Below, in pieces: positions 343 to 45,674 of a stretch of DNA of 64,000 nt; positions within the stretch are counted from its first letter, which is position 1, and the number at the start of each line of letters is the position of its first letter. This stretch comes from Chryseobacterium binzhouense (GTDB lineage: Bacteria; Bacteroidota; Bacteroidia; Flavobacteriales; Weeksellaceae). Made by a program: the position numbers and the translations under genes. The notes below the pieces were generated by a model. That model was given only the letters and a program-made list of their open reading frames with translations. It had not been told where the DNA came from and ran no database searches. The stretch lies in assembly GCF_007474545.1 (NCBI RefSeq), contig NZ_VKOG01000004.1:186001-250000 (forward strand), in the 5' to 3' direction.

Positions 343-351
343 AAAGAAGAC

Positions 352-445
352 GTCAGACATCAGATTTTAGATGTTAGACTCTTTACCTTATATATAAAAT
401 TTAAAATCTGATGTCTGAAATCTGGCATCTGAAATCTTAGATAAA
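352..445. repeat. 7-bp-phased inverted array A (nuoD-nuoE gap)
   Basis: Left half, 352-386, reads in 7-mers GTCAGAC ATCAGAT TTTAGAT GTTAGAC TCTTTAC. Right half, 404-445, reads AAATCTG ATGTCTG AAATCTG GCATCTG AAATCTT AGATAAA. Positions 353-369 and 402-418 are perfect reverse complements (17 bp) around a 32-nt spacer, so the transcript can form a strong hairpin. The array ends 2 nt before the nuoE start codon. There is no U-tract after the stem, so it does not look like an ordinary terminator. Confidence 0.8.
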
Positions 446-447
446 AA

Positions 448-957: not shown

Positions 958-1044
958 AAATAAATTTTAAATTAATTAAAAAGGCGTACAGCTATCACAC
1001 TAAGTTCATCGAAGTGTAAAGCCATTCGCTAAAAGCATATAACA

Positions 1045-2397
1045 ATGAGTAAAAAACTTTTACTTAAAGACGCACACATAGAAGGTATCCGCTACTTTGA
1101 AACTTACCGCAAACAGGGAGGTTACGGAGCGGCAGAAAAAGCTTTGAAGATGACTCCGGACGAAATTCTGGAAGAAGTAAAAGCTTCCGGACTTCGTGGA
1201 CGTGGTGGTGCAGGTTTCCCTACCGGTATGAAATGGAGCTTTTTGGCTAAACCGGAAGGCGTTCCAAGACACTTGGTAGTAAATGCTGATGAATCTGAAC
1301 CGGGAACTTTCAAAGACAGATACCTAATGGAATTTCTTCCTCATTTGTTGATCGAAGGAATGCTTATTTCATCTTACTGTTTAGGCTCAAATGTTTCTTA
1401 TATCTATATCCGTGGAGAATACTCATGGATTCCTGATATTTTAGAAGAAGCCATTGAAGAGGCTAAAGCAGCAGGATTTTTAGGTAAAAATATTTTGGGA
1501 AGCGGTTTTGATTGTGAAATTTACGTTCAAAGAGGAGGTGGAGCATATATATGCGGTGAAGAAACTGCATTGCTTGAATCTCTTGAAGGTAAAAGAGGCA
1601 ACCCAAGACTAAAACCACCATTCCCGGCTGTAAAAGGGCTTTGGGAAAGACCAACGGTTGTGAATAATGTAGAATCTATTGCAGCAGTTGTTCCTATCAT
1701 AGATATTACAGGGGCTGAATATGCTAAAATAGGAGTGGGAAAATCTACAGGTACTAAATTAATTTCTGCTTGTGGAAATATCAACAAACCTGGAGTTTAT
1801 GAAATTGATATGACGATTACGGTTGAAGAATTCATTTACTCTGACGAATATTGCGGTGGAATTAAGGACGGAAAAAAATTAAAAGCCTGTATTCCCGGAG
1901 GAAGCTCAGTTCCGATCGTTCCGGCTAACTTGTTATTAAAAACCGTAAACGGTGAACCAAGATACATGAACTATGAATCTCTTGCTGATGGTGGTTTTGC
2001 TACCGGAACTATGATGGGTTCGGGAGGTTTCATTGTTTTAGATGAAGATCAGTGTATTGTAGAACATACAATGACTTTGGCGAGATTTTATAATCACGAA
2101 AGTTGCGGACAATGTACTCCTTGCCGTGAAGGAACTGGATGGATGTACAAAATTTTAAAGAAAATAGAAAACGGCCAGGGTAAAATGGAAGATATTGATC
2201 TTCTTTGGGACATCCAGAGAAAAATCGAAGGAAACACCATTTGTCCGTTGGGTGATGCAGCAGCATGGCCTGTTGCAGCGGCGATCCGTCATTTCAGAGA
2301 TGAATTTGAATGGCATATCAAAAATCCGGAATTGTGTTTAACACAAAACTACGGATTGGCAAATTATGCAGATCCAATTCCATCACCTGCCGTTTAG
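1045..2397 (+). CDS. nuoF: NADH-quinone oxidoreductase subunit F
   Basis: A 450-residue 51-kDa-type subunit that oxidises NADH through FMN and passes electrons to cluster N3. The FMN/NADH glycine-rich motif GRGGAGFPTGMKW is at about residues 52-64, a second glycine-rich stretch (QRGGGAYICGEETAL) is near residue 165, and the [4Fe-4S] ligands are in SCGQCTPCREG near residue 353 plus the cysteine of TICPLGD near residue 400. The length and motif order are standard. It is co-directional with nuoE and is followed, after only 22 nt, by a non-nuo gene for a predicted outer-membrane protein that separates it from nuoG. Confidence 0.97.
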   Translation: MSKKLLLKDAHIEGIRYFETYRKQGGYGAAEKALKMTPDEILEEVKASGLRGRGGAGFPTGMKWSFLAKPEGVPRHLVVNADESEPGTFKDRYLMEFLPHLLIEGMLISSYCLGSNVSYIYIRGEYSWIPDILEEAIEEAKAAGFLGKNILGSGFDCEIYVQRGGGAYICGEETALLESLEGKRGNPRLKPPFPAVKGLWERPTVVNNVESIAAVVPIIDITGAEYAKIGVGKSTGTKLISACGNINKPGVYEIDMTITVEEFIYSDEYCGGIKDGKKLKACIPGGSSVPIVPANLLLKTVNGEPRYMNYESLADGGFATGTMMGSGGFIVLDEDQCIVEHTMTLARFYNHESCGQCTPCREGTGWMYKILKKIENGQGKMEDIDLLWDIQRKIEGNTICPLGDAAAWPVAAAIRHFRDEFEWHIKNPELCLTQNYGLANYADPIPSPAV

Positions 2398-2419
2398 TTA
2401 TAATTTAGTTTAAGCACAA

Positions 2420-3235
2420 TTGAAAAAGAAGTTTTTATTACTGCTGTTATTAGCAGTAGCTTCATTTGCAAGCGCACAAACAGAGCCCTTCAAAAAAGGA
2501 TCTGTAATGATTTTCTGGGGTTGGAACAATGCAAAATATTCAAACTCTGATATTCATTTTAAAGGAAAAGGGTATGATTTCCAGCTTGACAATGTGGTTG
2601 CTAATGACAGACAGACAAAGTTTGAATGGAATGTATATTTTAATCCGGCAAACCTTACCATTCCTCAGGTAAATTACAGGATTACCTTTTTCCCGAAAGA
2701 TAATTTCGGAATTAGCCTAGGGATGGATCACATGAAATATGTGATGGATCAAAACCAGACCGTAAACTTTAAAGGACATATTGATGATCCTAAATACGCG
2801 GAAATGGTAAATAATGGTAAAGTAGACCTTAGTGATGCAGAATTTTTAACATTCGAACATACAGACGGTCTTAATTATATCAATATTGGAGCACAGAAAT
2901 ATCACAATGTTTTAAACAAAAAAAATGTTGATATATTTTTGAGTTACGGAGCAGGATTAGGAGCTTTACTGCCTAAATCTAATGTGAGGCTGATGGGAAA
3001 TGAAAGAAGCGACAGATTTCATCTCGCAGGCTTCGGACTGGATGCAAGAGCTGCGGTGAGTGTGGTTGCCTTAAGACATATTGTTGTACAGGCAGAAGGC
3101 AAATTAGGATACATTAATATGCCGGATATAAAAACCACGCTGAACAACAAGCCAGATAAAGCCATGCAGGATTTTGTCTTTGCACAGTTTAATTTCGGAA
3201 TAGGATATACATTTAATACGAAAAAGTATAATTAA
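2420..3235 (+). CDS. Predicted outer-membrane beta-barrel protein inside the nuo operon
   Basis: A 271-residue protein I cannot assign to a named family. It begins with a clear signal peptide (MKKKFLLLLLLAVASFASA-Q), which supports the TTG start at 2420: an in-frame TAA lies just upstream and the next Met would discard the signal. The mature part has alternating polar/hydrophobic and aromatic stretches and ends in a strand-like, aromatic-containing segment (FNFGIGYTF), as outer-membrane barrels do. It sits 22 nt after nuoF and 45 nt before nuoG on the same strand, so it is probably co-transcribed with complex I although its likely location is the outer membrane. A function in complex I is not implied by the sequence. 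A periplasmic or surface protein is the main alternative. Confidence 0.7.
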   Translation: MKKKFLLLLLLAVASFASAQTEPFKKGSVMIFWGWNNAKYSNSDIHFKGKGYDFQLDNVVANDRQTKFEWNVYFNPANLTIPQVNYRITFFPKDNFGISLGMDHMKYVMDQNQTVNFKGHIDDPKYAEMVNNGKVDLSDAEFLTFEHTDGLNYINIGAQKYHNVLNKKNVDIFLSYGAGLGALLPKSNVRLMGNERSDRFHLAGFGLDARAAVSVVALRHIVVQAEGKLGYINMPDIKTTLNNKPDKAMQDFVFAQFNFGIGYTFNTKKYN

Positions 3236-3280
3236 ATAGAGCTTAAAAGCTTTTAACAGCATAAGCGAAAAGCATAGAAT

Positions 3281-4279
3281 ATGAGCGAAGAGGTTAAAAA
3301 ATTTAAAATAACTATAGACGGACAGACTACCGAGGTCTTACCTGGAACTTCTATTTTGGAAGCTGCAAGACAAATCGGCGGAAAATCTGTTCCTCCTGCA
3401 ATGTGCTACTACAGTAAGCTGGAAACCAGTGGAGGCAGATGCAGAACTTGTCTTGTGGAAGTTTCTAAAGGATCTGAAGCAGACCCGCGTCCTATGCCCA
3501 AATTGGTAGCAAGCTGCAGAACCAATGTGATGGATGGCATGGAAGTGAAAAACCTTTCTTCTGAAAAAGCACAGGAAGGCAGAAAGGCAGTTACCGAATT
3601 TCTATTGGTAAACCATCCTTTAGATTGTCCTGTTTGTGATCAGGCAGGAGAATGTCATCTTCAGGATTTGGGTTACGAGCATGGAAATCTGGAAACCAGA
3701 ACCGAATTTGAAAGAAACACTTATGATGCAGACGACTTAGGTCCGAACATCAAATTAAATATGAACCGTTGCATCTTGTGTGCGAGATGTGTATTAGCAG
3801 CAAACCAATTAACAGGAGAACGCGAACACGGAATCCTTTTCAGAGGAGATCATGCTGAAATTTCTACTTATCTGAATAAAGCTTTGGATAATGATTTCAT
3901 CGGTAACGTGATTGATGTTTGTCCGGTTGGTGCGTTAACCGATAGAACGGCTCGTTTTGCAAGCAGAGTTTGGTTTACAAAGCCTATGAATGCTTCTTGT
4001 AAATGCGATAAATGTTCAGGGAAAACCACGGTTTGGATGAAAGGTGACGAGATCGTAAGAGTAACTGCAAGAAAAGATCAGTGGGGAGAAGTTGAAGAGT
4101 TTATCTGTGATACCTGCCGTTTTGAAAGAAAAAATCTGAGCGACTGGAATATTGAAGGACCAAGACATATCGACAGACACTCGGTAATTTCTTTAAACCA
4201 TTATGAAAAGCCAAAAGATGAATTACGAGTTTTAGACAATCCGATGGCTAAAGAAATCAGCGAAAAAGACGAAAAATAA
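3281..4279 (+). CDS. nuoG: NADH-quinone oxidoreductase subunit G, short form
   Basis: A 332-residue 2Fe-2S/4Fe-4S subunit of complex I. Ligand sets are visible in order: N1b-type [2Fe-2S] C42, C54, C57, C79; N5-type H112, C116, C119, C125; N4-type C164, C167, C170 with C214. A further group, C240, C242, C245, C276 and C279, lies where E. coli NuoG has cluster N7 but does not follow its C-x2-C-x3-C-x27-C spacing. The protein then ends, lacking the large molybdopterin-oxidoreductase-like domain of the roughly 900-residue proteobacterial NuoG. Short NuoG proteins are usual in Flavobacteriia, so this is not a truncation. It is followed by array B and nuoH. Confidence 0.93.
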   Translation: MSEEVKKFKITIDGQTTEVLPGTSILEAARQIGGKSVPPAMCYYSKLETSGGRCRTCLVEVSKGSEADPRPMPKLVASCRTNVMDGMEVKNLSSEKAQEGRKAVTEFLLVNHPLDCPVCDQAGECHLQDLGYEHGNLETRTEFERNTYDADDLGPNIKLNMNRCILCARCVLAANQLTGEREHGILFRGDHAEISTYLNKALDNDFIGNVIDVCPVGALTDRTARFASRVWFTKPMNASCKCDKCSGKTTVWMKGDEIVRVTARKDQWGEVEEFICDTCRFERKNLSDWNIEGPRHIDRHSVISLNHYEKPKDELRVLDNPMAKEISEKDEK

Positions 4280-4286
4280 TTAATAA

Positions 4287-4363
4287 GATTTCAGATTTCA
4301 GACATTAGATAACAGACTTTTGTAATTCTAATTTCTAATTTCTAACTTCTAATATTTATAAAA
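4287..4363. repeat. 7-bp-phased array B (nuoG-nuoH gap)
   Basis: Eleven consecutive 7-mers keep phase without a slip: GATTTCA, GATTTCA, GACATTA, GATAACA, GACTTTT, GTAATTC, TAATTTC, TAATTTC, TAACTTC, TAATATT, TATAAAA. The first half carries (C/T)AGA every 7 nt and the second half carries its complement, TCTA, every 7 nt, so the array is half-inverted like array A, but here the variable 3-nt spacers do not pair. It ends 6 nt before the nuoH ATG. Confidence 0.8.
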
Positions 4364-4369
4364 ATAAAA

Positions 4370-5434
4370 ATGGATTTAATTACATTTAAATTAATACTTG
4401 TATTTGCGCTTTTTCTGTTATCATTAACGATAGCCGCCTACTCTACATGGGCAGAAAGAAAAGTGGCAGCAATCATGCAGGACAGAATAGGACCCAACAG
4501 ATCAGGACCATTCGGTTTGCTGCAGCCTCTTGCAGATGGTGGTAAATTTTTCTTTAAAGAAGATTTTACACCTGCTAATGCTGAAAAGTTTCTTTTCGTA
4601 TTGGGACCTGCATTGGTGATGTTCATTTCATTAATTACCGGAGCTGTTATTCCTTGGGGGAAAACACTTAATATTGGAGGCACTTCTTTCGATCTGCAAA
4701 TTGCAGATATTGATATAGGTGTACTATTTATTATCGGAATGGCTTCTATAAGTGTTTATGGAATGATGATCGGAGGATGGGCTTCAAACAACAAATATTC
4801 TTTATTAGGAGCTATCCGCGCATCTTCGCAAATGATTTCCTATGAACTAGCAATGGGTTTATCTCTTTTAGCAATCATTATGATGAGTGGAAGCTTAGAT
4901 TTAAAAGTTATAACCGAAAATCAAGCAGAGGGAAAACTTTGGGGAATTATACCAATTGGTTCCGGTCTTAACTGGAATATTTTCTACCAACCTTTAGCAT
5001 TTCTGATTTTCTTCGTGGCTGCTTTGGCAGAAACCAACCGTCACCCTTTCGATTTACCTGAATGTGAATCTGAATTGGTAACAGGTTACTCAACAGAATA
5101 TTCATCTATGAAATTAGGTTTATATATGTTTGGTGAATATGTGAATATGTTTATTGCCAACGCATTTTTAGTTGTACTTTTCTTCGGGGGCTACAATTAT
5201 CCTGGAATTGAATGGGTAACTCAAAACTGGGGAGAAAATACAGCAGGAATATTAAGCATTGTAGCATTTTTAACGAAAACGGTTGTCGGAATTTTGATCT
5301 TCATGTGGATCAGATGGACGTTACCAAGATTCAGATACGATCAGTTGATGCATTTAGGATGGAAAACTTTAATTCCGCTTGCATTGTTGAATCTGATGAT
5401 TACAGGAGCTGTAATTTTAGCGTTCGGTAATTAA
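4370..5434 (+). CDS. nuoH: NADH-quinone oxidoreductase subunit H
   Basis: A 354-residue integral membrane subunit (ND1 homologue) with about eight transmembrane segments that forms part of the quinone chamber and the link between the peripheral and membrane arms. Both family signatures are present: AERKVAAIMQDRIGPNRSGP near residues 28-47 and the loop ALAETNRHPFDLPECESELV followed by TEYSSMKLGLYMFGEY near residues 220-260. The length is usual. It starts with ATG directly after array B. The downstream gap of 137 nt to nuoI holds an AT-rich hairpin and array C. Confidence 0.97.
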   Translation: MDLITFKLILVFALFLLSLTIAAYSTWAERKVAAIMQDRIGPNRSGPFGLLQPLADGGKFFFKEDFTPANAEKFLFVLGPALVMFISLITGAVIPWGKTLNIGGTSFDLQIADIDIGVLFIIGMASISVYGMMIGGWASNNKYSLLGAIRASSQMISYELAMGLSLLAIIMMSGSLDLKVITENQAEGKLWGIIPIGSGLNWNIFYQPLAFLIFFVAALAETNRHPFDLPECESELVTGYSTEYSSMKLGLYMFGEYVNMFIANAFLVVLFFGGYNYPGIEWVTQNWGENTAGILSIVAFLTKTVVGILIFMWIRWTLPRFRYDQLMHLGWKTLIPLALLNLMITGAVILAFGN

Positions 5435-5453
5435 GAAAGTATTTGAAAATCTG

Positions 5454-5489
5454 ATGATGAGATAATTTAAAAATTAACATTATCATCAT
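5454..5489. repeat. Bulged inverted repeat downstream of nuoH
   Basis: ATGATGAGATAAT (5454-5466) can pair with ATTATCATCAT (5479-5489), leaving a two-base AG bulge. No U-tract follows, and nuoI lies downstream on the same strand, so this is more likely an mRNA processing or stability hairpin than a terminator. This is an inference from pairing only. Confidence 0.45.
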
Positions 5490-5514
5490 TTTAAAATATA
5501 ATAGTAAATAATTA

Positions 5515-5567
5515 AGATAACAGACAAGATTAGTCTAAATCTAATGTCTAACATCTAATATCTATAA
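5515..5567. repeat. 7-bp-phased array C (nuoH-nuoI gap)
   Basis: TCTA occurs at 5534, 5540, 5547, 5554 and 5561, spaced 6, 7, 7 and 7 nt, giving 7-mers TCTAATG, TCTAACA, TCTAATA, TCTATAA. AGA-containing 7-mers precede them (AGATAACAGACAAGAT), so the same half-inverted layout as arrays A and B is recognisable. The array ends about 5 nt before the nuoI ATG. Confidence 0.7.
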
Positions 5568-5571
5568 TTAA

Positions 5572-6129
5572 ATGAAACTTACAAACAGATCTAAAGTTGT
5601 TTCAAATAAGGAGATGACCTTTTCTGAGAAAATCTACCTTCCGGCGATTTTCAAAGGAATGGGGATTACCTTCAAGCATGCTGTAAGAACAGTGATGAAA
5701 GGTGCTCCTGCAGTTTACTCATATCCTGAAGTACAAAAACCAAGAACTGAAATCTGGAGAGGTCAGCACGTTCTGAAAAGAGATGAAGAGGGAAGAGAAA
5801 GATGTACAGCCTGCGGATTGTGTGCTGTAGCCTGTCCTGCTGAAGCAATTACCATGACTGCAGCAGAAAGAACGAAGGAAGAAAAACATCTTTACAGAGA
5901 AGAAAAATATGCATCAGTATATGAAATCAATATGCTGAGATGTATTTTCTGCGGTATGTGCGAAGAGGCTTGTCCTAAATCTGCAATTTATCTAACAGAC
6001 AGACTGGTAGACGTAGAAACCAACAGAGGTTCTTTCATCTACGGAAAAGATAAATTGGTTGAAAAAATAAATGAAAGGATTGATATCACTGAAAGACAAT
6101 CCGAGAAACAAAAAAATGCGGTAAAATAA
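5572..6129 (+). CDS. nuoI: NADH-quinone oxidoreductase subunit I
   Basis: A 185-residue ferredoxin-like subunit (TYKY) carrying clusters N6a and N6b, which pass electrons towards N2 and quinone. Two classical [4Fe-4S] motifs are present: C78, C81, C84, C88 (CTACGLCAVACP) and C124, C127, C130, C134 (CIFCGMCEEACP). The N-terminal amphipathic stretch matches the membrane-associated part of the family. The stop codon overlaps the nuoJ start by one base (TAATG), indicating translational coupling. Confidence 0.97.
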   Translation: MKLTNRSKVVSNKEMTFSEKIYLPAIFKGMGITFKHAVRTVMKGAPAVYSYPEVQKPRTEIWRGQHVLKRDEEGRERCTACGLCAVACPAEAITMTAAERTKEEKHLYREEKYASVYEINMLRCIFCGMCEEACPKSAIYLTDRLVDVETNRGSFIYGKDKLVEKINERIDITERQSEKQKNAVK

Positions 6130-6626
6130 TGGATCAGTTTTTATTTTTCTTGGTGGCGTTTTTAGCAGTGGCAAGTGCCGTTTATTTTGTATTTGCAAAA
6201 AATGCTTTATATGCTATTTTGTCATTAATTGTTACAATGTTTTCAATTGCCGGAATGTATATTCTTTTGAATGCACAATTTCTTGCTATTATCCAGATCA
6301 TCGTTTATGCAGGAGCCATCATGGTTTTATTCCTCTATATCTTAATGATGCTTAATCTCAATAAGGAAGACGAAAGTAAGAAGAACAATACTTTAAAATT
6401 TATTGGAGTTTTTACTGCCGGTATTTTATTAGTAGGTGTTCTGGGAGTCTTCAGAGGGGTTCAGGAAAAACACATTTTGGTTGAAAATGTTGATCAGGGT
6501 GTAGGTCTTACGAAAAATCTCGGGAGACTTTTATTCAATGAATATGTTTTACCGTTTGAGCTTGCTTCCATCCTGATTTTGGCAGGTATTGTAGGTGCGG
6601 TACTAATCGGTAAAAAAGATTTATAA
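6129..6626 (+). CDS. nuoJ: NADH-quinone oxidoreductase subunit J
   Basis: A 165-residue membrane subunit (ND6 homologue) with about five transmembrane segments. The family-typical segment IIQIIVYAGAIMVLFLYILM, which forms the helix next to the central proton axis, is present near residues 56-75. The start overlaps the nuoI stop by one base, and nuoK begins 4 nt after its stop, so expression is tightly coupled. Length and position in the operon are standard. Confidence 0.96.
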   Translation: MDQFLFFLVAFLAVASAVYFVFAKNALYAILSLIVTMFSIAGMYILLNAQFLAIIQIIVYAGAIMVLFLYILMMLNLNKEDESKKNNTLKFIGVFTAGILLVGVLGVFRGVQEKHILVENVDQGVGLTKNLGRLLFNEYVLPFELASILILAGIVGAVLIGKKDL

Positions 6627-6630
6627 AATT

Positions 6631-6960
6631 ATGGGAGAAGTTAATACATTTATGCAAAGCATCCCTTTGGAATATTTCATCACTCTTTGCTCAGTTTTAT
6701 TCTGTCTGGGAGTTTTGGGAGTATTGCTCAGAAAAAATGCGATTGTAATTTTGGGTTGTGTAGAGCTTATGCTTAATTCTGTAAACCTTTTATTGGCTGC
6801 ATTTGCGGCATACAAAGGGAACAGCGACGGACAGCTGCTGGTTTTCTTCATCATGGTCGTTGCTGCAGCCGAAGTTGCGGTTGGTCTTGCAATTATTGCG
6901 ATGTTGTATAGAAATACCCGTTCTGTAGATGTAGGAATTTTTAATAAATTAAAAGGATAA
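6631..6960 (+). CDS. nuoK: NADH-quinone oxidoreductase subunit K
   Basis: A 109-residue membrane subunit (ND4L homologue) with three transmembrane helices. The two conserved intramembrane glutamates used in proton translocation are visible as E45 in CVELMLNSVN and E81 in AAAEVAVGLAI. The ATG follows nuoJ by 4 nt and nuoL starts 6 nt after its stop. The protein is slightly longer than many NuoK proteins because of a short N-terminal extension. Confidence 0.96.
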   Translation: MGEVNTFMQSIPLEYFITLCSVLFCLGVLGVLLRKNAIVILGCVELMLNSVNLLLAAFAAYKGNSDGQLLVFFIMVVAAAEVAVGLAIIAMLYRNTRSVDVGIFNKLKG

Positions 6961-6966
6961 GAAAGA

Positions 6967-8880
6967 ATGGAGAATTTAATTTATGCAATAGTACTTTTAC
7001 CACTTATAGGTTTTCTTATCAACGGACTTTTTGGCAAAAATCTTCCAAAGATCGTAGTCGGAAGTTTGGCAACAGCAGCAGTTTTTGCTTCTTTTTGTAT
7101 TGCGGTAAGCTTATTTTTAAATTTTGACTCAGAAAGTCCGGCAGTTGTCGTTAAAGCTTTTGAATGGTTCAGAGTAAACGGAGTTCAGATTAATTTTGGT
7201 TTTCAGATTGATCAGCTGTCATTAATGATGGTCATGATTATCACAGGAATCGGGTCGTTAATTCACCTCTACTCTATCGGATATATGAGCCATGACAAAG
7301 GTTTTTATAAGTTTTTTACTTATCTGAATCTTTTTATCTTCTCAATGTTGCTTTTAGTAATGGGAAGCAATTACATGATCTTATTCATCGGTTGGGAAGG
7401 TGTAGGTCTTTGTTCTTATTTATTAATCGGATTCTGGTATACTAATCAGGAATATGGTAAGGCAGCAAGAAAGGCTTTTATCATGAACAGAATCGGCGAC
7501 CTTGGTCTATTGATTGGAATCTTTATGATTGCCTCTCAGACCAACTCTGTAGATTATATTTCAGTAGCACAAAATGCTGCTAAATTTGAATTGGACGGCA
7601 ATATCATTATTTTTATTACTGCAAGTTTATTTATCGGAGCAATCGGTAAATCAGCTCAGGTTCCATTATATACATGGTTACCAGATGCGATGGCGGGTCC
7701 TACTCCTGTTTCTGCGTTGATTCACGCAGCGACGATGGTTACCGCTGGTATTTATTTGGTTGTAAGATCGAACTTCTTATTTACTTTAGCACCGACTGTT
7801 CAGGACGGAATTTTACTCATAGGATTTTTAACCGCAGCTTTGGCGGGATTCTACGCTCTTCGTCAGAACGACATCAAAAAAGTTTTGGCATATTCTACCG
7901 TTTCGCAGCTTGGTTTTATGTTTATCGCCCTAGGTCTTGGTGCTTACACAACAGCAATGTTTCACGTAATGACGCATGCTTTCTTTAAGGCACTATTATT
8001 CTTGGGAGCGGGTTCTGTAATCCATGCGATGAGTAACGAACAGGATATGCGTTTCATGGGAGGTTTAAAAAAATATATTCCTCTTACACACATTACTTTT
8101 CTTATCGGAACATTGGCAATTTCAGGTTTCCCATTATTATCAGGGATGATTTCTAAAGATGAAATTTTAGTAGCGGCTTTTGCTAAAAATCCAATTTACT
8201 GGGTTATGTTATTTATTTTAGCTGCTGTTACGGCAACCTATATGTTCAGACTGTATTATTTAACTTTTCACGGAGAATTCAGAGGAACAGAAAAGCAAAA
8301 ACATCATTTGCATGAAAGTCCGTTGAACATGACTTTACCTTTGATTATTCTGGCAGTACTTTCCGTAGTAGGAGGTTTTATTAATCTTCCTCACTTTATA
8401 GGTCACGGTCATTATGCTAAATTGATGGAATGGCTGAAACCTGTTTTAACAGAAGAAAGCTTCAAACAAATGGAAGCAACTCTTTCGGGTGTTGATTTTA
8501 ATACCGAAATGATTCTTTTAGGAGCTACAGTTTTAATGTTCTTTACCGTTTGGTTTATTGTTAAAAACATTTATGTCAACAAAAAGAAAGTAGCAAAAGC
8601 AGAAGAAGATTACACCGGCTGGGAAAAACTTTCTGCCAAAAAATTATATGTGGATGAGCTTTACAATGCTTTGATTGTAAAAACTTTTGAAGGACTTGGG
8701 CGTGGTGGAAAAATGTTTGATAAAGGCGTTCTAGACCGTTTTGTAGATTACATAGGAGAAGGTGCTGAAGACAGCGGTAGATCTATGAAGCGTATTCAGA
8801 ACGGAAATGTTGAGAACTATGTTCTTATCATGACTTTAGCTGTGGGAATTATACTGATTGTTAACTTTATACTACAATAA
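6967..8880 (+). CDS. nuoL: NADH-quinone oxidoreductase subunit L
   Basis: A 637-residue antiporter-like membrane subunit (ND5 homologue) at the distal end of the membrane arm. The proton-antiporter core signatures are present: FIGWEGVGLCSYLLIGFWY near residue 140, the AMAGPTPVSALIHAATMVTA helix near residue 240, and HAFFKALLFLGAGSVIHAM near residue 336. A C-terminal hydrophilic stretch followed by a last transmembrane helix corresponds to the lateral helix region. The nuoM start overlaps its stop by one base (TAATG). Confidence 0.97.
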   Translation: MENLIYAIVLLPLIGFLINGLFGKNLPKIVVGSLATAAVFASFCIAVSLFLNFDSESPAVVVKAFEWFRVNGVQINFGFQIDQLSLMMVMIITGIGSLIHLYSIGYMSHDKGFYKFFTYLNLFIFSMLLLVMGSNYMILFIGWEGVGLCSYLLIGFWYTNQEYGKAARKAFIMNRIGDLGLLIGIFMIASQTNSVDYISVAQNAAKFELDGNIIIFITASLFIGAIGKSAQVPLYTWLPDAMAGPTPVSALIHAATMVTAGIYLVVRSNFLFTLAPTVQDGILLIGFLTAALAGFYALRQNDIKKVLAYSTVSQLGFMFIALGLGAYTTAMFHVMTHAFFKALLFLGAGSVIHAMSNEQDMRFMGGLKKYIPLTHITFLIGTLAISGFPLLSGMISKDEILVAAFAKNPIYWVMLFILAAVTATYMFRLYYLTFHGEFRGTEKQKHHLHESPLNMTLPLIILAVLSVVGGFINLPHFIGHGHYAKLMEWLKPVLTEESFKQMEATLSGVDFNTEMILLGATVLMFFTVWFIVKNIYVNKKKVAKAEEDYTGWEKLSAKKLYVDELYNALIVKTFEGLGRGGKMFDKGVLDRFVDYIGEGAEDSGRSMKRIQNGNVENYVLIMTLAVGIILIVNFILQ

Positions 8881-10373
8881 TGTCTTATTTACTATTAACA
8901 TTATTACTATTACCTCTTGTAGGTTCGGGATTAGTTTTTGCTTGGAAAAATGCTTCTAGCAAATATTTGGCGTTGGGAATTGCTTTAATACAGATGCTGC
9001 TTACATTTTATGTGCTTTCGGATTTCAGTTTTGAACCGACAGTTGATAGTACTTTGCAGCACGAAATCAATTATCCCTGGTCACAATTTATAAAAAGCAG
9101 CCTTCGTTTCGGAATAGACGGAATGAGTATGCTTCTTTTGCTGCTGACCAACATTCTTTCGCCTCTAATTATTTTATCATCATTTAACGAAAACACTGGC
9201 TACAAAAACTCATTTTACGGGCTGATTCTGATGATGCAATTTGGTCTTATCGGAGTATTTACAGCTTTAGATGGTTTGTTATTTTATATTTTCTGGGAAG
9301 TAACACTAATTCCGATCTGGTTCATTGCAGCACTTTGGGGACAAGAGAACAAAAGATTTGAATTTACTACAAAATTCTTTGTGTATACATTTGTAGGATC
9401 TTTGTTTATGCTAGCTGGAATTATATATGTAGGAATATATTCAGCTTCTTATGCATTAACAGATATGTATAATGCTGATTTAGGCGAAACAAAACAGATT
9501 GTTATATTCTGGTGTATTTTCTTTGCATTCGCAGTAAAACTTCCGGTTTTCCCTTTCCATACATGGCAGCCGGATACCTATACTTACTCTCCTACTCAGG
9601 GATCTATGCTTTTATCAGGAATTATGCTGAAAATGGCGATCTATGGAGTAATAAGATATTTACTGCCTATCACTCCAACAGCGATATTAGGAATTTCCGG
9701 ACAAATTGTAATTATTCTGGCTATTATCGGAATCGTACATGGAGCTTTAATTGCCATCATTCAGAATGATATGAAAAGAATCATTGCGTATTCTTCTTTT
9801 TCACACGTTGGATTGATGGTTGCTGGTATTTTTGCTTCAGCTGTTCTTACATTAAGAGGAACATTTACCATTGAAGGTGCTGAAGGAGCATTGGTACAGA
9901 CGTTTGCTCACGGTGTAAACGTAGCAGGATTGTTTTTCTGTGCTGATATTTTATACAAAAGATTTAAAACGAGAGATATCAGACAAATGGGAGGTCTTGC
10001 AAAAGTAGCTCCTAAATTTGCTGTACTTTTCCTTTTGATTATTTTGGGATCAATGGGAGTTCCGTTGACTAATGGATTCATTGGTGAATTTATCCTCATT
10101 AAGTCTGTTTTTGATTTTAATGTTTTAGCTTCAGTAATTGCTGGTTTAACGATCATTCTTTGTGCAGTTTATCTTTTGAGATTTTACGGTAAAGCAATGT
10201 TTGGTGAAGGTGATGCAGCAGTTTTAAGCACGGCTAAAGATTTGTCAGCTGTAGAATTTTCTGTACTGGCGAGTATTGCAGTATTTGTAATTCTTCTGGG
10301 AATATTTCCTCAGCCGATTATTGATATGGTAGGAAGTTCGTTGAAGTTTGTATATTCATCAATGATTAATTAA
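8880..10373 (+). CDS. nuoM: NADH-quinone oxidoreductase subunit M
   Basis: A 497-residue antiporter-like subunit (ND4 homologue). The conserved FYIFWEVTLIPIWFIAALWG segment (near residue 139) carries the glutamate of the proton channel, and the KLPVFPFHTWQPDTYTYSPT helix (near 220) and the KRIIAYSSFSHVG motif (near 297) match the family. Length is usual. It is coupled to nuoL by a one-base overlap and separated from nuoN by a 122-nt gap filled by array D. Confidence 0.97.
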   Translation: MSYLLLTLLLLPLVGSGLVFAWKNASSKYLALGIALIQMLLTFYVLSDFSFEPTVDSTLQHEINYPWSQFIKSSLRFGIDGMSMLLLLLTNILSPLIILSSFNENTGYKNSFYGLILMMQFGLIGVFTALDGLLFYIFWEVTLIPIWFIAALWGQENKRFEFTTKFFVYTFVGSLFMLAGIIYVGIYSASYALTDMYNADLGETKQIVIFWCIFFAFAVKLPVFPFHTWQPDTYTYSPTQGSMLLSGIMLKMAIYGVIRYLLPITPTAILGISGQIVIILAIIGIVHGALIAIIQNDMKRIIAYSSFSHVGLMVAGIFASAVLTLRGTFTIEGAEGALVQTFAHGVNVAGLFFCADILYKRFKTRDIRQMGGLAKVAPKFAVLFLLIILGSMGVPLTNGFIGEFILIKSVFDFNVLASVIAGLTIILCAVYLLRFYGKAMFGEGDAAVLSTAKDLSAVEFSVLASIAVFVILLGIFPQPIIDMVGSSLKFVYSSMIN

Positions 10374-10380
10374 TTTTAAA

Positions 10381-10492
10381 GAGTAAAGAATTAAGAGAGA
10401 GGAATTAAAGAATCAAGATAAAAGTAAAAGGTATCAAACCTTAAATTCTGAACCTTGAACTTCAAATTTCGCATCTCAAATCTCAAATATAA
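10381..10492. repeat. 7-bp-phased array D (nuoM-nuoN gap)
   Basis: Sixteen 7-mers can be laid end to end with no slip. The right part (10444-10492) is the most regular: AATTCTG, AACCTTG, AACTTCA, AATTTCG, CATCTCA, AATCTCA, AATATAA. The left part is purine-rich (GAGTAAA, GAATTAA, GAGAGAG, GAATTAA) and is roughly the complement in style of the right part. The array fills the gap and ends 3 nt before the nuoN ATG. Confidence 0.75.
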
Positions 10493-10495
10493 ATT

Positions 10496-11881
10496 ATGAG
10501 TGTTTTAATTATTGTTTTCCTTACAGCGGTTGCTGCACTATTCTCGGGAGTTTTTGAAAAAGGAAAATTCGCAAGATACATCGGGATTTTTGGATTAATC
10601 ATCGCCTTGTATGTAAGTTTTTTACCGGAAGCTTCTTTCTTCGAAAAATACAGATTAATGTATGAATACGGAGCCAATACAGCTTTATTTACAAAAATTT
10701 CTATTGTAACAACTTTGCTGTTATTCTTCCTTGGAGGATTTGCATTCAGCAACCACAGAAATCACCAGTCAGAATTGTATGCGCTGATGCTTTTTGCACT
10801 TTGCGGAGGTTTCGTATTATTCGGGTTTCAGAATTTAGTAACTTTGTTCATCGGAGTTGAGATCTTGTCTATACCTTTATACGTAATGGCGGGAGCTAAC
10901 AAAACAGATCTAAGATCAAACGAAGCTTCTTTAAAATATTTCCTGATGGGAGCGTTTGCCACAGGTTTTTTATTGCTGGGAATTGCATTTATCTACGGAA
11001 GCACAGGAACATTTGATTTATATAGAATACAGGATTTCAGTACAGTAAATCCTAAAAACGGAATGCTGATTCTTGGTGCAGTATTAATGCTATGCGCAAT
11101 GGCTTTCAAAGTAGCTTTAGCACCTTTCCACATGTGGAGTCCGGATGTTTATCAGGGTTCACCTTCACTGATTACGGCTTTCATGGCAAGTGTGGTAAAA
11201 ATTTCTGGTTTTTTCGCATTATTCAGATTAATGACCATCGGTTTCTCCGGAATTACCCACGAATGGATCCATATTTTAGGCGTTTTTCTAATCATCACTT
11301 TATTGTTGGCAAACGTAATGGGTCTTGCACAGACTAATGCTAAAAGAATGCTGGCATATTCTTCTGTTTCTCATGCCGGTTACATTGGTTTGGTATTTTT
11401 TGGAATGAATGCATTATCAACATATACTTTAGCTTTTTATCTATTCGCTTATTCATTAGCTACCGTTGGAGTTTTCATGTGTTTAATCTGGGTTGAAAAA
11501 CTTAAAAGAGAAACATCTTACGGAGCCTTTAAAGGCTTGGCTAAATCTGAACCGCTTTTAGCTGTGGTTGCTACTATTTCTTTATTGTCAATGGCAGGAA
11601 TACCATTAACTGCAGGGTTCATGGGTAAGTTTTCATTATTTGCACAGGCTCTAGCAAAAGACGATAATACTTTTTTGGTTATTGTAGCTGTTCTAGGCTC
11701 GGCGATTTCTATTGCTTATTATTTAAGACTGATTATTGCCATGTTTTTCTACAAAGAATCCAGTTTTAAAACGACAGAAAGAGTCACCATTACGTACAAT
11801 ATTGTAGCCGTTGTAATTATTGCTTCACTGGTTATCCTGGGTATCTTCCCTGATCTGTTTGCCAAGCAGTTTGGATTATAG
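10496..11881 (+). CDS. nuoN: NADH-quinone oxidoreductase subunit N
   Basis: A 461-residue antiporter-like membrane subunit (ND2 homologue), the last gene of the nuo operon. Family features include the VTLFIGVEILSIPLYVMAG helix with its conserved glutamate near residue 122, the MAFKVALAPFHMWSPDVYQG stretch near residue 201, and KRMLAYSSVSHAGYIGLVF near residue 283. It starts at the ATG directly after array D. A Rho-independent terminator follows 20 nt after the stop. Confidence 0.97.
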   Translation: MSVLIIVFLTAVAALFSGVFEKGKFARYIGIFGLIIALYVSFLPEASFFEKYRLMYEYGANTALFTKISIVTTLLLFFLGGFAFSNHRNHQSELYALMLFALCGGFVLFGFQNLVTLFIGVEILSIPLYVMAGANKTDLRSNEASLKYFLMGAFATGFLLLGIAFIYGSTGTFDLYRIQDFSTVNPKNGMLILGAVLMLCAMAFKVALAPFHMWSPDVYQGSPSLITAFMASVVKISGFFALFRLMTIGFSGITHEWIHILGVFLIITLLLANVMGLAQTNAKRMLAYSSVSHAGYIGLVFFGMNALSTYTLAFYLFAYSLATVGVFMCLIWVEKLKRETSYGAFKGLAKSEPLLAVVATISLLSMAGIPLTAGFMGKFSLFAQALAKDDNTFLVIVAVLGSAISIAYYLRLIIAMFFYKESSFKTTERVTITYNIVAVVIIASLVILGIFPDLFAKQFGL

Positions 11882-11900
11882 AAATCCTTTAAAATAAACA

Positions 11901-11930
11901 AAAGCACAGCCATCGGGTTGTGCTTTTTTT
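11901..11930 (+). terminator. Rho-independent terminator of the nuo operon
   Basis: AAAGCACA (11901-11908) pairs with TGTGCTTT (11919-11926) around a 10-nt loop, and a run of T follows to 11930. It lies 20 nt after nuoN and marks the end of the complex I operon. Confidence 0.85.
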
Positions 11931-11931
11931 A

Positions 11932-11939
11932 TAACTTTG
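11932..11939 (+). promoter_or_regulatory. Bacteroidota -7 element before the GAF-domain gene
   Basis: TAACTTTG matches the Bacteroidota -7 consensus TAnnTTTG and lies just after the nuo terminator. It predicts a transcript start near 11946, which would exclude the TTG at 11918 and the GTG at 11939 as starts of the next gene. A convincing -33 element was not seen. Confidence 0.5.
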
Positions 11940-11959
11940 TGCCACAAAAACAATCAGGT

Positions 11960-14260
11960 TTGGCAGAACTGTACACAGAAGATACTCCGTTTCAGATTTT
12001 CATTTCATTCAAAAAATATTTGGATGTTCTGGAACATATCAGGTACAATGACCGTTTGGAATACAGAGCCAACTATGCCGAATCTTTAATCGAAAAAACT
12101 AAAAAATTTCCGGAACTGAGAGAAGGCTTTCAGGATCTTTCTCTTCTTGAAAAACATTCTGAACTGATAAGGCTTCTTCTTGCAGATCTCTTTCCTACCG
12201 GTCTTACTCATAACGAAATTAAAGCTGCAAGTATTCCTTTGGCTGATATAACCTTCAATTATACGGAGAGATTTAAAAATATACTTGCCGATGCAGGAAC
12301 AGATTTTGAGATAAAGCTAAGAGATATTAACCAAAACGAATTTTATATTTTCTGCTGCTGTATTATTCTTCAGGTTCATTACAATACAGATTTCAAAGCC
12401 AGTCTTCCGCTTTATTATGATATTCCCAATAAGTACGGGATCATGAAGCATTATAAAATAACAGTCAATTCAGATTTTACGGATATTTATCCTCAAGAAG
12501 ATACACAGATTCCTGATTTGGATACTGTAGAAATGCTTCTGGAAAACATGGATGATATTTCTCTCTGGAAAAAACATTTTCCTCCGAAGTCTTGGGTTAT
12601 GTGTGGTTTTGCGATTATTTCACTTGTAGACTGCACATCAGAAGTAGCCTTATCAGATCTGAAATCAACCATGATTGAGATTGATATTGAAAATCCTCAA
12701 CCTAACGAAAATCTGCTGGAAATCTTCAAATCCTACTTTGATGTACCCGATCTTAATTTCGGATTGATGATTTACAATAAAAAAGACCGGAAACTCGAAA
12801 ATGTTCCTATTTACGAAAATGTATTTACAAGTTACATTCTCGATTTCTGGCTGAAAACATTCAATGAAGAAATAAGACAAACTACCCTTGAAAACATAAG
12901 CTATAACTCGAAGCCTATCGTGGTTGCCAACGTTGACAAGATAGATGAAGAAATCAAAAAACTGCCGTCTTTTCAGCTATTGAAGCAGGCGAATATAAAC
13001 AGTTTTATCATCATTCCGATTATGAAAAACGGCGAACTGATGGCAATTATGGAGTTTACCTCATCACAGCCAAATAGCCTGAATGGTTTAAAACTTAAAA
13101 AAATTGAATTTTTTACCGAAATGATTCTGTTTTCGGTTTCCCGTTTCAACTCTGAAAGAAATAACCAGATTGAAGCTATTATTCAGCGAGAATACACGAC
13201 CATTCATGACAGTGTCGTTTGGAAGTTCAGAAATGAAGCAGAGAAATACTTCAATGCTGTTTTGTCTAGAAAAATCTATACACTCAAAGAAATTTCGTTC
13301 AAAAATCTGTCGCCTCTTTTTGGATTCTCAGACATTCGTTCTTCTTCTGAAAAACGTTTTAACCTGATGAAAGAAGATCTCAATGCACAGCTTGATGTAC
13401 TGTATGCATTGTTTACAACGATCAATTCAGATTCTGAAAAGTACCTTTTGGCAATAGAAATTTTTGAAAACGAACTGAATAATGAAATTAAAGCCGATAC
13501 TGAACAAAGATTTCAACGTCTTCTTCAGGATGAAATCCACCCCTATCTACAGGCAAAAGTAGAAACTGATCCAAGAGCAGAAATTAAAGAAAATATCAAA
13601 ACTTATTTTAAGCAGATCAACAATCCGAATCAGCTTTTTTATCACCGACGAAAAAATCTTGATGAATCAATAACACTAGTCAACCGGAAGCTTGCGGACA
13701 TTTTAGACAATAGGCAAACTACAGCTCAGGAGATTTTCCCGCATTATTACGAGCGTTTTAAGTCTGACGGAATTGAGCATAATCTGTACATCGGTCAAAA
13801 TATTGCACCCAATCTGGACTATTCACAAAAATATCTGAATCAGCTCCGTTTCTGGCAGCTGGAAACCATTTGCAAAATGGAAGCCGAGTTCAGAAAATTC
13901 AAATCATCTCTTCCGATTTCGCTGGATATTGCATCATTGGTTTTTGTTTATAACGAAAAAATAGACATCCGTTTCCGAATGGATGAAAAACGCTTTGATG
14001 TAGACGGTGCATACAATTCCTATTACGAAATCATCAAAAAAAGACTTGACAAAGCCCACATTAAAGGCAGTGAAGAAAGAATCACTGCACCAGGGAAAAT
14101 CGTCATCGTATATTTCGGAATGGAAAACCAAAAAGAATACCTTCAATACATTAACACTCTTCAAAAACAAAACATTCTGAAAAATGATGTCGAATTTCTA
14201 AAAGTAGAAGATCTGCAGGGAATTTCAGGACTGCTTGCTTTGAGGGTTTCGCTATATTAG
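11960..14260 (+). CDS. GAF-domain-containing protein
   Basis: A cytoplasmic protein of about 766 residues without signal peptide. A GAF-like sensory domain is recognisable at about residues 290-400 (a V-x-N-V-D-K-I region followed by INSFIIIPIMKNGELMAIMEF). The N-terminal part and the long helical C-terminal part are not assignable by eye. The open frame extends up to 11918, but that start lies inside the nuo terminator; I chose the TTG at 11960 because the only promoter-like element is at 11932-11939. GTG at 11939 is the alternative. No output domain such as a kinase or HTH was seen, so the role (ligand or redox sensing) is inferred from the GAF domain only. Confidence 0.75.
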   Translation: MAELYTEDTPFQIFISFKKYLDVLEHIRYNDRLEYRANYAESLIEKTKKFPELREGFQDLSLLEKHSELIRLLLADLFPTGLTHNEIKAASIPLADITFNYTERFKNILADAGTDFEIKLRDINQNEFYIFCCCIILQVHYNTDFKASLPLYYDIPNKYGIMKHYKITVNSDFTDIYPQEDTQIPDLDTVEMLLENMDDISLWKKHFPPKSWVMCGFAIISLVDCTSEVALSDLKSTMIEIDIENPQPNENLLEIFKSYFDVPDLNFGLMIYNKKDRKLENVPIYENVFTSYILDFWLKTFNEEIRQTTLENISYNSKPIVVANVDKIDEEIKKLPSFQLLKQANINSFIIIPIMKNGELMAIMEFTSSQPNSLNGLKLKKIEFFTEMILFSVSRFNSERNNQIEAIIQREYTTIHDSVVWKFRNEAEKYFNAVLSRKIYTLKEISFKNLSPLFGFSDIRSSSEKRFNLMKEDLNAQLDVLYALFTTINSDSEKYLLAIEIFENELNNEIKADTEQRFQRLLQDEIHPYLQAKVETDPRAEIKENIKTYFKQINNPNQLFYHRRKNLDESITLVNRKLADILDNRQTTAQEIFPHYYERFKSDGIEHNLYIGQNIAPNLDYSQKYLNQLRFWQLETICKMEAEFRKFKSSLPISLDIASLVFVYNEKIDIRFRMDEKRFDVDGAYNSYYEIIKKRLDKAHIKGSEERITAPGKIVIVYFGMENQKEYLQYINTLQKQNILKNDVEFLKVEDLQGISGLLALRVSLY

Positions 14261-33506: not shown

Positions 33507-33569
33507 TAGGACGCTGTTTTAGGATTAGTTCTACTGCATCCCACACCCAACATCTAACACCCAACATTT
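33507..33569. repeat. 7-bp-phased array E (before rsmD)
   Basis: Reading back from the rsmD ATG, 7-mers AACATTT, AACACCC, AACATCT, CACACCC, TGCATCC keep phase, and GTTCTAC, AGGATTA, CTGTTTT, TAGGACG follow less regularly upstream. The last 7-mer abuts the rsmD start codon. Confidence 0.65.
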
Positions 33570-35015: not shown

Positions 35016-35035
35016 AACTGAACTGAAATTTTATA

Positions 35036-35043
35036 CAAAAATA
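35036..35043 (-). promoter_or_regulatory. -7 element of murI
   Basis: TATTTTTG on the minus strand matches TAnnTTTG; transcription would start near 35029, giving a leader of about 14 nt to the TTG start at 35015. Confidence 0.5.
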
Positions 35044-35052
35044 AACAATTTG

Positions 35053-35135
35053 TTGGATGCAGGAAGATGGATATCACAAGTTTTTCAAATACCGTTTTCC
35101 AGATTGAAGTTTCAGGACTTCAGACTAAACAATAA
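35053..35135. repeat. 7-bp-phased array H (hemW-murI gap)
   Basis: GGA recurs at 35055, 35062 and 35069 in the left half, and 7-mers AGATTGA, AGTTTCA, GGACTTC, AGACTAA, ACAATAA run from 35101 to 35135. Read on the minus strand the right half is CTGAAGT CCTGAAA CTTCAAT CTGGAAA. The array includes the hemW stop codon (35125-35127), so it overlaps coding sequence. Confidence 0.6.
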
Positions 35136-42544: not shown

Positions 42545-43534
42545 ATGAGCAAAAAGCAAGTCGCCGTGGTTATGGGCGGTTATTCTGATGAATATAAAGT
42601 TTCTCTAAAAAGCGGACAATTGATATACGAGTCGCTTGATCGTGATCTTTACGATGTTTATAAAGTAATTATCCTGAAAGACGAATGGTATTATTTAAAT
42701 GAAAACAACGAGAAAAAAACCATCAACAAAGGAGATTTTTCTGTAAATACAGATAACGGAAATCTAAAATTTGATGTCTGCTTCAATATCATCCACGGAA
42801 CTCCGGGAGAAAACGGTGTCCTTCAGGCGTATTGGGACGCTATCGGACAAAAATATACCGGTTGTGACTTTTATCAGAGCGCTTTAACATTTAATAAAAA
42901 AGATACATTAGCCGTACTTTCAAAATACGGAATTCCTTCTGCGAAAAGTGTTTACCTGAGAAAAGGTGAAGAAATTAAAACGGATGAGATTATAGAAAAT
43001 CTGGGGCTTCCTGTTTTCGTTAAACCCAACCAATCCGGTTCTTCTCTGGGAATTTCTAAAGTGAAAGAAAAATCTGAATTAATTGCTGCTACAGAGCTTG
43101 CTTTTAAAGAAGATGATGAGATTTTAATTGAAAGTTTCCTCAACGGAATGGAAGTTTCGGTGGGAGTTATAGACTTTAAAGGGGAAACTATCGTACTCGG
43201 AATTACTGAGATTGTTCCTAAAAACGAGTTTTTTGATTACGAGGCTAAATATGAAGGGGCTTCAGAAGAAATTACCCCAGCAAGAATAGACGACGCAACC
43301 AGAATCCGTGTGGAAGAAATTGCAAAAAGAGCTTACAACTCTCTCGGAATGAGCGGATTTTCCCGAAGCGAATTTATTCTGATGGACGGAATTCCATATA
43401 TGCTGGAAATGAATACCAATCCTGGATTTTCTCCGGCAAGCATTCTTCCGCAACAGGCAAAACATTACGGAATTTCTATTAAAGATCTTTGTGGGAATGA
43501 AGTTGAAAAGGCTTTAGATAAAGTTAGAAGTTAG
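42545..43534 (+). CDS. ddl: D-alanine--D-alanine ligase
   Basis: A 329-residue ATP-grasp ligase that makes the D-Ala-D-Ala dipeptide for peptidoglycan. Family features: VAVVMGGYSDEYKVSLKSG at the N-terminus, FNIIHGTPGENG near residue 80, VFVKPNQSGSSLGISKV near 155 and MLEMNTNPGFSPASILPQQ near 280. Its last codons (K-V-R-S-stop) lie inside the tandem AGTTAGA repeat of array F, so the C-terminus has been shaped by the repeat. First of an apparent pair with coaD. Confidence 0.96.
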   Translation: MSKKQVAVVMGGYSDEYKVSLKSGQLIYESLDRDLYDVYKVIILKDEWYYLNENNEKKTINKGDFSVNTDNGNLKFDVCFNIIHGTPGENGVLQAYWDAIGQKYTGCDFYQSALTFNKKDTLAVLSKYGIPSAKSVYLRKGEEIKTDEIIENLGLPVFVKPNQSGSSLGISKVKEKSELIAATELAFKEDDEILIESFLNGMEVSVGVIDFKGETIVLGITEIVPKNEFFDYEAKYEGASEEITPARIDDATRIRVEEIAKRAYNSLGMSGFSRSEFILMDGIPYMLEMNTNPGFSPASILPQQAKHYGISIKDLCGNEVEKALDKVRS

Positions 43535-43564
43535 AAGTTAGAAGTTATGCAAAACTAACTTTTC
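43522..43564. repeat. 7-bp-phased array F (end of ddl)
   Basis: AGTTAGA occurs three times in exact tandem at 43522-43528, 43529-43535 and 43536-43542, then AGTTATG. AAGTTA (43542-43547) can pair with TAACTT (43556-43561). The first two units contain the last codons and the stop of ddl. The 3' half (CTAACTTTTCTT) is the complementary style. Confidence 0.75.
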
Positions 43565-45591: not shown

Positions 45592-45600
45592 GATTAAATT

Positions 45601-45658
45601 TTAGAAGTGCAAAGATAAAACATTTAAAGGTTAGATGCTAAAAGTTAAGCCTTAGAAT
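45601..45658. repeat. 7-bp-phased array G (after folA)
   Basis: 7-mers TTAGATG, CTAAAAG, TTAAGCC, TTAGAAT run in phase from 45631 to 45658; TTAGAAG, TGCAAAG, ATAAAAC, ATTTAAA precede at 45601-45628 with a two-base phase shift. Weaker than arrays A-D. Confidence 0.5.
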
Positions 45659-45674
45659 TACGGCAACTATTCTT

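Follow-up and report, generated by a model that had tools for sequence, protein, structure and literature searches.

Heptanucleotide arrays in operon gaps of Chryseobacterium and their association with S23/IVP genes

Why should short words that differ from copy to copy recur at exact 7-nt steps in the gaps between the genes of an operon? The question is raised by a 64,000-nucleotide stretch of the Chryseobacterium binzhouense genome (the window; host genome 3.6 Mb in 16 contigs), for which an initial annotation described eight sites where such words keep a 7-nt phase, the left half in the clearest cases carrying a word and the right half its complement. Four of these sites lie between genes that we take, from gene order and sequence, to be nuo genes. 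A feature invisible from the window alone is that similar pairs of arms border open reading frames (ORFs) for S23/IVP proteins, and it is on this association that the account below is built.

Each of the eight site ranges was compared, through its best lag-7 segment, with 2000 first-order Markov shuffles. Seven exceeded their shuffles (p≤0.016; Table 1) and 35053-35135 was marginal and is not convincing, in a set of ranges that had been picked for their periodic look and whose p-values are uncorrected for that choice. At all eight sites lags 4-6 and 8-10 scored below lag 7. The phase described by the annotation stands for seven sites and is doubtful for one. A fairer test took in every window gap of 40-800 bp, 41 in number: five scored at least 12 at lag 7 and 0-2 did so at other lags; shuffles of these gaps gave a mean of 1.3 such gaps and a maximum of 6 in 300, and the excess over shuffled sequence is weaker here than site by site. 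Because the window sites were picked for looking periodic, relatives offer the stronger test of periodicity.

The half-inverted layout is clearest at 352-445, with a 17-nt exact inverted match, and is visible by word at 4287-4363, 5515-5567 and 10381-10492. In the nuoM-nuoN element the left arm is purine-rich and the right arm pyrimidine-rich. The array with the word CAYCYAA runs up to the start codon of a gene for a Cons_hypoth95-like methyltransferase (PF03602), the AGTTAGA array overlaps the 3' end of ORF 42545-43534, and the whole nuoH-nuoI gap is absent from the significant gaps of the own-genome lag-7 gap test. No close copy of the 10374-10500 array was found by nucleotide search, the best other place being 73% identical across 84 bases of the query (E 3e-5). 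The exact pattern YAGANNN x4 was rejected as an array detector, with 38 matches against 34 for its reversed control; the search is uninformative because the reversed control is able to match the same arrays.

Table 1. Heptad arrays and candidate arrays of the window, in window coordinates; p-values are from the Markov shuffles described in the text.
Feature	Position	Strand	Evidence
ORF-less heptad element, nuoD-nuoE gap	343..447	+	lag-7 score 34 over gap; 352-445 p=0.0005
Arms of nuoD-nuoE element	left ~352-379 (YAGANNN); right ~403-441 (NNNTCTR)	+	
ORF-less heptad element, nuoG-nuoH gap	4280..4369	+	lag-7 score 26.6; 4287-4363 p=0.0005
Arms of nuoG-nuoH element	left ~4286-4317; right ~4326-4358	+	
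nuoH-nuoI gap with array 5515-5567	5435..5571	+	array p=0.003
ORF-less heptad element, nuoM-nuoN gap	10374..10495	+	lag-7 score 29.2; 10381-10492 p=0.0005; species comparison
Heptad array, word CAYCYAA	33503..33569	+	33507-33569 p=0.0005
AGTTAGA x3 left arm and short right arm	43522..43564	+	lag-7 score 19, p=0.0005
Weaker heptad array between two minus-strand ORFs	45592..45674	-	45601-45658 p=0.0155; significant in gap test
Weak candidate, flanked by minus-strand ORFs on both sides; unconvincing by itself	35016..35124	-	35053-35135 p=0.054

The nuo operons of related genomes were represented by the best 80 of 541 confirmed loci, the closest nuo relatives being Chryseobacterium species. In 719 intergenic gaps of 60-600 bp from these loci and the window (105 kb), identity at lag 7 was 0.413. 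Lags 3-6 and 8-13 gave 0.29-0.34, and the signal recurred more faintly at lag 14 (0.375) and lag 21 (0.349). Coding DNA gave 0.26. As the annotation held, 7 nt is not a codon period, and the phase shows the enrichment in related genomes for which it had proposed to look. Gap by gap (40-700 bp, significance being a score above the 99th percentile of a gap's own shuffles), lag 7 was significant in 73/81 nuoD-E, 41/72 nuoE-F, 74/80 nuoG-H, 53/81 nuoH-I and 50/56 nuoM-N gaps, and around the ORF that lies between nuoF and nuoG in 0/65 gaps before it and 31/74 after it. The corresponding counts at lag 8 were 1, 0, 18, 26, 34, 0 and 1, and these signals are taken to be slipped arrays.

It is the phase that persists in these gaps and not the words. 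The nuoD-E gap carries words of the CAGACAT, TTGTACA, AAAAGAA or ATCTAAA families according to species, and in one pair of loci (L038 and L051) the 200-bp coding flanks are 100% and 99% identical while the nuoD-E arrays are unalignable; the annotation had already noted, among the copies in the window, that the words change while the 7-nt step is kept. The comparison of orthologous gaps that it recommended showed the nuoM-N array replaced by a 16-bp spacer in 23 of the 78 other loci with a parsed gap, the other 55 having at least 40 bp. The whole stop-to-start gap differs between species in the manner of a cassette, and among the nuo and carA-carB gaps compared no clean empty site with a target duplication was found. 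Polarity is shared more widely than words: among 95 of the 106 distinct ORF-less nuo alleles (those with a lag-7 score of at least 9), 68 have a G-rich left and a C-rich right half, 2 are reversed and 25 mixed. As inverted repeats (score at least 14) an allele's own halves matched in 22% of the 106, against 9% for swapped halves, and the half-inverted layout that is plain at 352-445 is therefore modest over the nuo alleles as a whole.

The nuoH-nuoI gap links these arrays to a gene. In three loci (L021, L047 and L055) it is about 560 bp long and its heptad arms enclose an ORF (broken in L055, intact in the other two) for an S23/IVP four-helix-bundle protein that scores far above cut-off for both PF05635, named '23S rRNA-intervening sequence protein', and TIGR02436. 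None of the other 78 of the 81 nuo loci, the window included, has an S23 match, and the window arrays are without an S23 ORF; by eye, similar arms are present but enclose no ORF in the nuoH-I gaps of L070 (279 bp) and L086 (195 bp). The genome from which the window comes has eight PF05635 places. One S23 gene lies between two genes that we take from their sequence to be carA and carB, and its YAGANNN arms have a word in common with the window arrays 352-445 and 4287-4363. Four of the six own-genome loci scored pass the flank threshold; L145 and L146 fall below it, with flanks that look interrupted-periodic by eye, L144 was flagged by the gap test, and L139 lies outside the scored set.

The carA-carB gap was parsed in 28 of 30 loci (L327-L356) and holds S23 in 10. 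That these represent one S23 with switched words was considered and rejected: there are two S23 clades, each with its own word, with 82-92% nucleotide identity within and 69-74% between them (the broken L347 left out). Elsewhere the gap is filled by other sequences, and the operon gap acts as a landing hot spot. Depending on the species it contains S23, RAYT-like ORFs (so named from their sequence) with REP-like hairpins, a hairpin repeat of the form GTCATTCTGAA...GGAATGACA, or solitary remnants of a right arm.

Across Bacteroidota, 126 S23 loci were chosen by search rank or listing with their flanks unseen, and 120 remained after six without a parsable intact ORF had been dropped. A lag-7 segment scoring at least 9 was present in a 140-nt flank at 99 of the 120, against about 18% of 104 control genes, all from one genome (G020), and lags 5, 6, 8 and 9 gave 5-17% of the S23 loci. 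The two arms of a locus matched as inverted repeats (score at least 14) in 76% of loci, compared with 17% for arms exchanged among S23 loci and 19% for control genes. When shared sites were collapsed, 37 of 52 distinct sites were heptad-flanked, with arms inverted at 30, direct at 1, tied at 1 and undecided at 5, and the remaining 15 had no flank above threshold. G exceeded C in 28 of 33 left arms (2 reversed), and C exceeded G in 26 of 27 right arms. Both neighbours were co-directional with the S23 gene at 106 of the 120 loci, at least one was opposite at 7, and a close parsed neighbour was missing at 7. In Bacteroidota, S23/IVP genes are thus reproducibly accompanied by heptad arrays, which lie in operon gaps, are inverted in most cases and have their G-rich side on the left. 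The window arrays agree with them in words, in class of site and in polarity; the ORF-less nuo arrays have the polarity of the S23 sites but match less well as inverted repeats.

Of 60 genomes sampled from the genus, 59 have a PF05635 match, as do 90 of 118 sampled from the phylum (a few genus members included), and none of 14 control genomes has one. Protein similarity and word similarity are weakly linked (Mantel r 0.17; 500 permutations gave a mean of 0.003, sd 0.059 and maximum 0.183). No near-identical pair of S23 proteins at different sites occurred among 99 proteins, the highest similarity being 0.77, and there is accordingly no sign of recent transposition.

The orientation of the gaps bears on whether mutation alone could make such arrays. 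In a 400-kb sample of the window's own genome (about 11% of a genome with eight S23 places) taken together with the window, significant gaps numbered 13/190 same-strand, 0/42 divergent and 0/40 convergent, and the control lags 5, 6, 8, 9, 10 and 11 gave 3, 0, 4, 1, 1 and 1 of the 272 gaps. Convergent and divergent gaps together yielded 0/215 in this set, G046 and G020, and 0/68 in four more samples. Among same-strand gaps, arrays were found in 21/387 from four S23-bearing samples and 1/211 from three S23-free ones, these being small samples that differ in species and base composition. The S23-bearing counts were 9/165 in the own sample, 10/148 in G020 and 2/43 in G091, while G123 has 11 S23 matches and yet 0/31 significant same-strand gaps; two of the 21 arrays, both in the own sample, border one S23. 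Of the S23-free samples, two distant genomes gave 0/60 and G046 1/151, which is at background (4 gaps at lag 8). Polymerase slippage in 7-nt steps, with hairpin template switching in weakly constrained gaps and no protein involved, would explain why the arms of one array often carry the same word while arrays differ, as template switching predicts, and the idea that 7 nt matches the polymerase contact length is cited by Rehm (2015, PMC4692102). Against it stand the lack of significant arrays in convergent and divergent gaps, their scarcity in S23-free samples and their concentration beside S23 genes, and it appears quite improbable. G046 is the sole genus genome of the 60 without a PF05635 match, and its nuoD-E and nuoG-H gaps have heptad arrays; the arrays therefore need no resident S23, and can outlive one or arrive without one.

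Complementary arms might instead have been kept as mRNA hairpins that serve coupling, insulation or RNase III processing, S23 simply being common in such gaps. Arm pairing is long in some alleles, 352-445 with its context folding at -32 kcal/mol; the folds of mRNA strands are slightly more stable than those of shuffles (mean z from -0.8 to -1.7); and the rRNA intervening sequence (IVS) of Coxiella is cut by RNase III (Warrier, 2016, PMC4990558). In three of five gaps, however, it is the complement strand whose mean z is lower, and mismatches between arms fail to favour the G-U type: 32 distinct S23 sites have 50 G-U against 60 A-C, and 58 ORF-less nuo alleles have 33 against 107, the opposite of what RNA pairing predicts, although the shortage in the nuo alleles may reflect G avoidance before start codons. 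In the nuoD-E allele aligned over 16 loci (the window and 15 species' loci chosen by eye), the RNAalifold covariation term was -0.05, and both compensatory pairs came from the single locus L068, where a two-base change is compensated on both arms. No match to an Rfam family above gathering score was found in window positions 1-12000. RNA pairing as an explanation of the arms has little support from these tests, which were negative or weak, and the suggestion of selection for RNA structure in the initial annotation is not supported; as the 7-nt step would also be left unexplained, we regard hairpins kept for their own sake as very unlikely.

The account that we favour, and hold to be moderately probable, is that the window arrays are the paired flanks, mostly gene-less, of a small intercistronic S23/IVP element. 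A full element would consist of an inward-reading G-rich heptad array, an S23/IVP gene (PF05635) and an inverted C-rich heptad array, set between co-directional genes and with its S23 gene, in Bacteroidota, nearly always in sense; from the co-directional gap and the sense gene it follows that the element would ride the host transcript. ORF-less arrays would descend from S23-bearing ones or be kept in trans by S23. The S23 ring would recognise heptads through a core of a few bases followed by a loose spacer, each subunit taking one unit, much as spaced triplets are read by TRAP, which such a core at a constant step brings to mind. Hairpin-driven copying would make the two arms alike, and an unusual copying process, also raised by the annotation, may lie behind the arrays. 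REP relates to RAYT, and MITEs to transposons, in a way that offers analogues for gene-less and gene-bearing copies, REP/BIME families with a RAYT having few gene-bearing copies, more numerous short gene-less relatives and inverted ends. The present arrays resemble these in that gene-less copies outnumber gene-bearing ones and the ends are inverted; they differ in the protein, a Y1 transposase in REP/RAYT whereas the gene between heptad arms matches PF05635, and the RAYT-like ORFs of the carA-carB gap are separate, in other species.

Ends that point inward, are G-rich and flank a gene, in a family where copies lacking the gene outnumber those that have it, resemble terminal repeats to which a protein binds. 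The obvious candidate for the binder would be S23: the solved relatives 2gsc and 2rld are listed with five chains each, and the Xanthomonas S23p is described as a homopentameric ring (Warrier, 2016, PMC4990558). The number of units per arm (median 5.1 in both arms, commonest 4, range 2-15) was considered as a reflection of a five-subunit ring; with four the commonest count and so wide a range, it is not evidence. The presumed mobility of the element is read from its distribution alone, as neither recent S23 duplicates nor clean insertion junctions were seen.

A ring-shaped RNA-binding S23 could also be cast as a trans-acting regulator, for which left arms would be binding sites, right arms antisense switch partners and the ORF-less arrays a regulon. 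Besides the five-chain structures, this reading draws on the conserved core, which recurs at a fixed step beside a loose spacer, on array ends near start codons and on the restriction of significant arrays to co-directional gaps. It is hard to reconcile with operons that are unrelated to one another, with the many words within one genome, with related species that have unrelated words or 12-16-bp gaps instead, and with the persistence of arrays in the S23-free G046, and we consider it unlikely.

An intercistronic S23/IVP element has its nearest published counterpart in the IVS of 23S rRNA, which likewise comprises an S23-family ORF between complementary borders, lies within a host transcript and is sporadic (Warrier, 2016, PMC4990558). 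The present elements differ in lying in the gaps of mRNA operons and not in rRNA helices, in that most copies have no ORF, and in their heptad arms, a feature known here from the operon-located copies alone. The window arrays lie between protein genes and hold no S23 ORF, the same gap being gene-bearing in L021 and L047; complementary borders are present at 352-445 and at most heptad-flanked S23 sites and are weak in the nuo allele set. The protein Avd of diversity-generating retroelements (DGR) is held to be homologous to PF05635 (PMC10053308), and one S23 (L140) matches bAvd and DivGenRetAVD below their cut-offs.

Other families of 7-nt repeats have been described from Bacteroidota and beyond. 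The initial annotation had pointed to the cyanobacterial STRR, first reported in 1990, and the arrays do resemble these. STRR usually have 7-bp units, have hairpin potential and lie in gaps such as hupS-hupL (PMC2670836). The window arrays are likewise made of tandem 7-bp intergenic units, and, in our judgement as to the STRR label, heptamers of this kind border S23 genes on plasmids of Nostoc, Calothrix and Anabaena. Units on those plasmids are often near-identical, whereas those of the window mostly differ at two or three of the seven positions, 43522-43564 being an exception.

GGGNATC repeats of Xanthomonas and Nostoc have 7-nt units between aligned ORFs, are G-rich in the 50 bp that follow a stop codon or, when they precede an ORF, on its antisense strand, a polarity like that found here, and form many inverted pairs in Xanthomonas and few in Nostoc PCC 7120, whose plasmids have none of the repeats (Rehm, 2015, PMC4692102). 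They are related there to G-quadruplexes. The YAGA and CTCAAAT words of the window lack G-tracts: GGG is on neither strand at seven of the eight sites, and at the eighth, 33507-33569, the complement has it three times. The TAACTGA repeats known from Beggiatoaceae, from cyanobacteria and from five Bacteroidetes are also intergenic heptamers, most of which end by start codons, and are described as direct repeats of a single word (MacGregor, 2015, PMC4679880); TAACTGA has no occurrence on either strand at the eight sites. The terms 'S23' and 'four helix' have no match in the text of either paper (PMC4692102, PMC4679880).

The same pattern was seen beyond the phylum in a small sample of plasmids. 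A plasmid protein search with one S23 returned 28 records, 22 of them cyanobacterial, and 16 places were read (14 cyanobacterial, 1 Azospirillum and 1 Gemmatirosa). A heptad flank was found at 13 of these 16 (12 cyanobacterial and the Azospirillum one), a sample without control genes, and was lacking at L357, L367 and L372. The words include GGGAACA, AGGGAGT, GTCAGAA and GGTGTAG, which we judge to be heptamers of the STRR kind; L358 and L364 have arms that look direct, and S23 is antisense to both neighbours in L357, L359 and L362. These genera are known to be rich in such repeats, and for this reason, together with the want of control genes, the recurrence of the pattern in other phyla is suggestive. 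Three of the cyanobacterial plasmid S23 genes lie inside CRISPR-Cas operons (L358, L365 and L367), in the order cas6-S23-cas4 twice and cas10-S23-Cmr3 family once.

A search of the open-licence literature gave, among the matches listed, no paper that links S23/IVP or 'four helix bundle' with heptamer repeats, and we know of no report of such a link. It is possible, though rather doubtful, that STRR, GGGNATC, TAACTGA and the present arrays, in Bacteroidota, Cyanobacteriota and Pseudomonadota, would all be the inward-reading ends of S23/IVP elements, read by a pentameric ring at one heptad per subunit, with S23 making or keeping the 7-nt repeats. If so, the factor behind the 7-nt repeats of bacterial genomes would be a protein that has so far been met chiefly as a passenger in split rRNA genes. 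The papers cited give no settled function or partner protein for STRR, GGGNATC or TAACTGA (PMC2670836, PMC4692102, PMC4679880), and S23/IVP proteins are described as of unknown function; the S23-heptad tie makes both questions testable with one protein and one short RNA or DNA. It would also set the intervening sequences of 23S rRNA, as the members located in rRNA, within a larger population of elements located in operons.

Several further observations concern operon gaps. The ORF between nuoF and nuoG (window 2420-3235) looks by eye like an outer-membrane protein; it has a tblastn match in 80/80 related nuo loci, and 2507-3232 has no Pfam match. In nine loci (L010, L025, L027, L038, L039, L042, L043, L060 and L072) the nuoH-I gap contains a near-perfect hairpin, AACCTAACAGGTTT or AACCTTATAGGTTT with its inverse, which lies upstream of the heptad array, so that these operon gaps hold a second repeat family. 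The genome of the window has an intercistronic ORF upstream of a sufC-like gene (L144:240-620), presumably GxxExxY-like and with no obvious heptad arms, and an S23 remnant is found near it, between the sufC-like and a sufD-like gene. A four helix bundle protein gene between those for guanylate kinase and nicotinate-nucleotide adenylyltransferase, in a phage region of Flavobacterium columnare (PMC5524665), may be another intercistronic S23 element.
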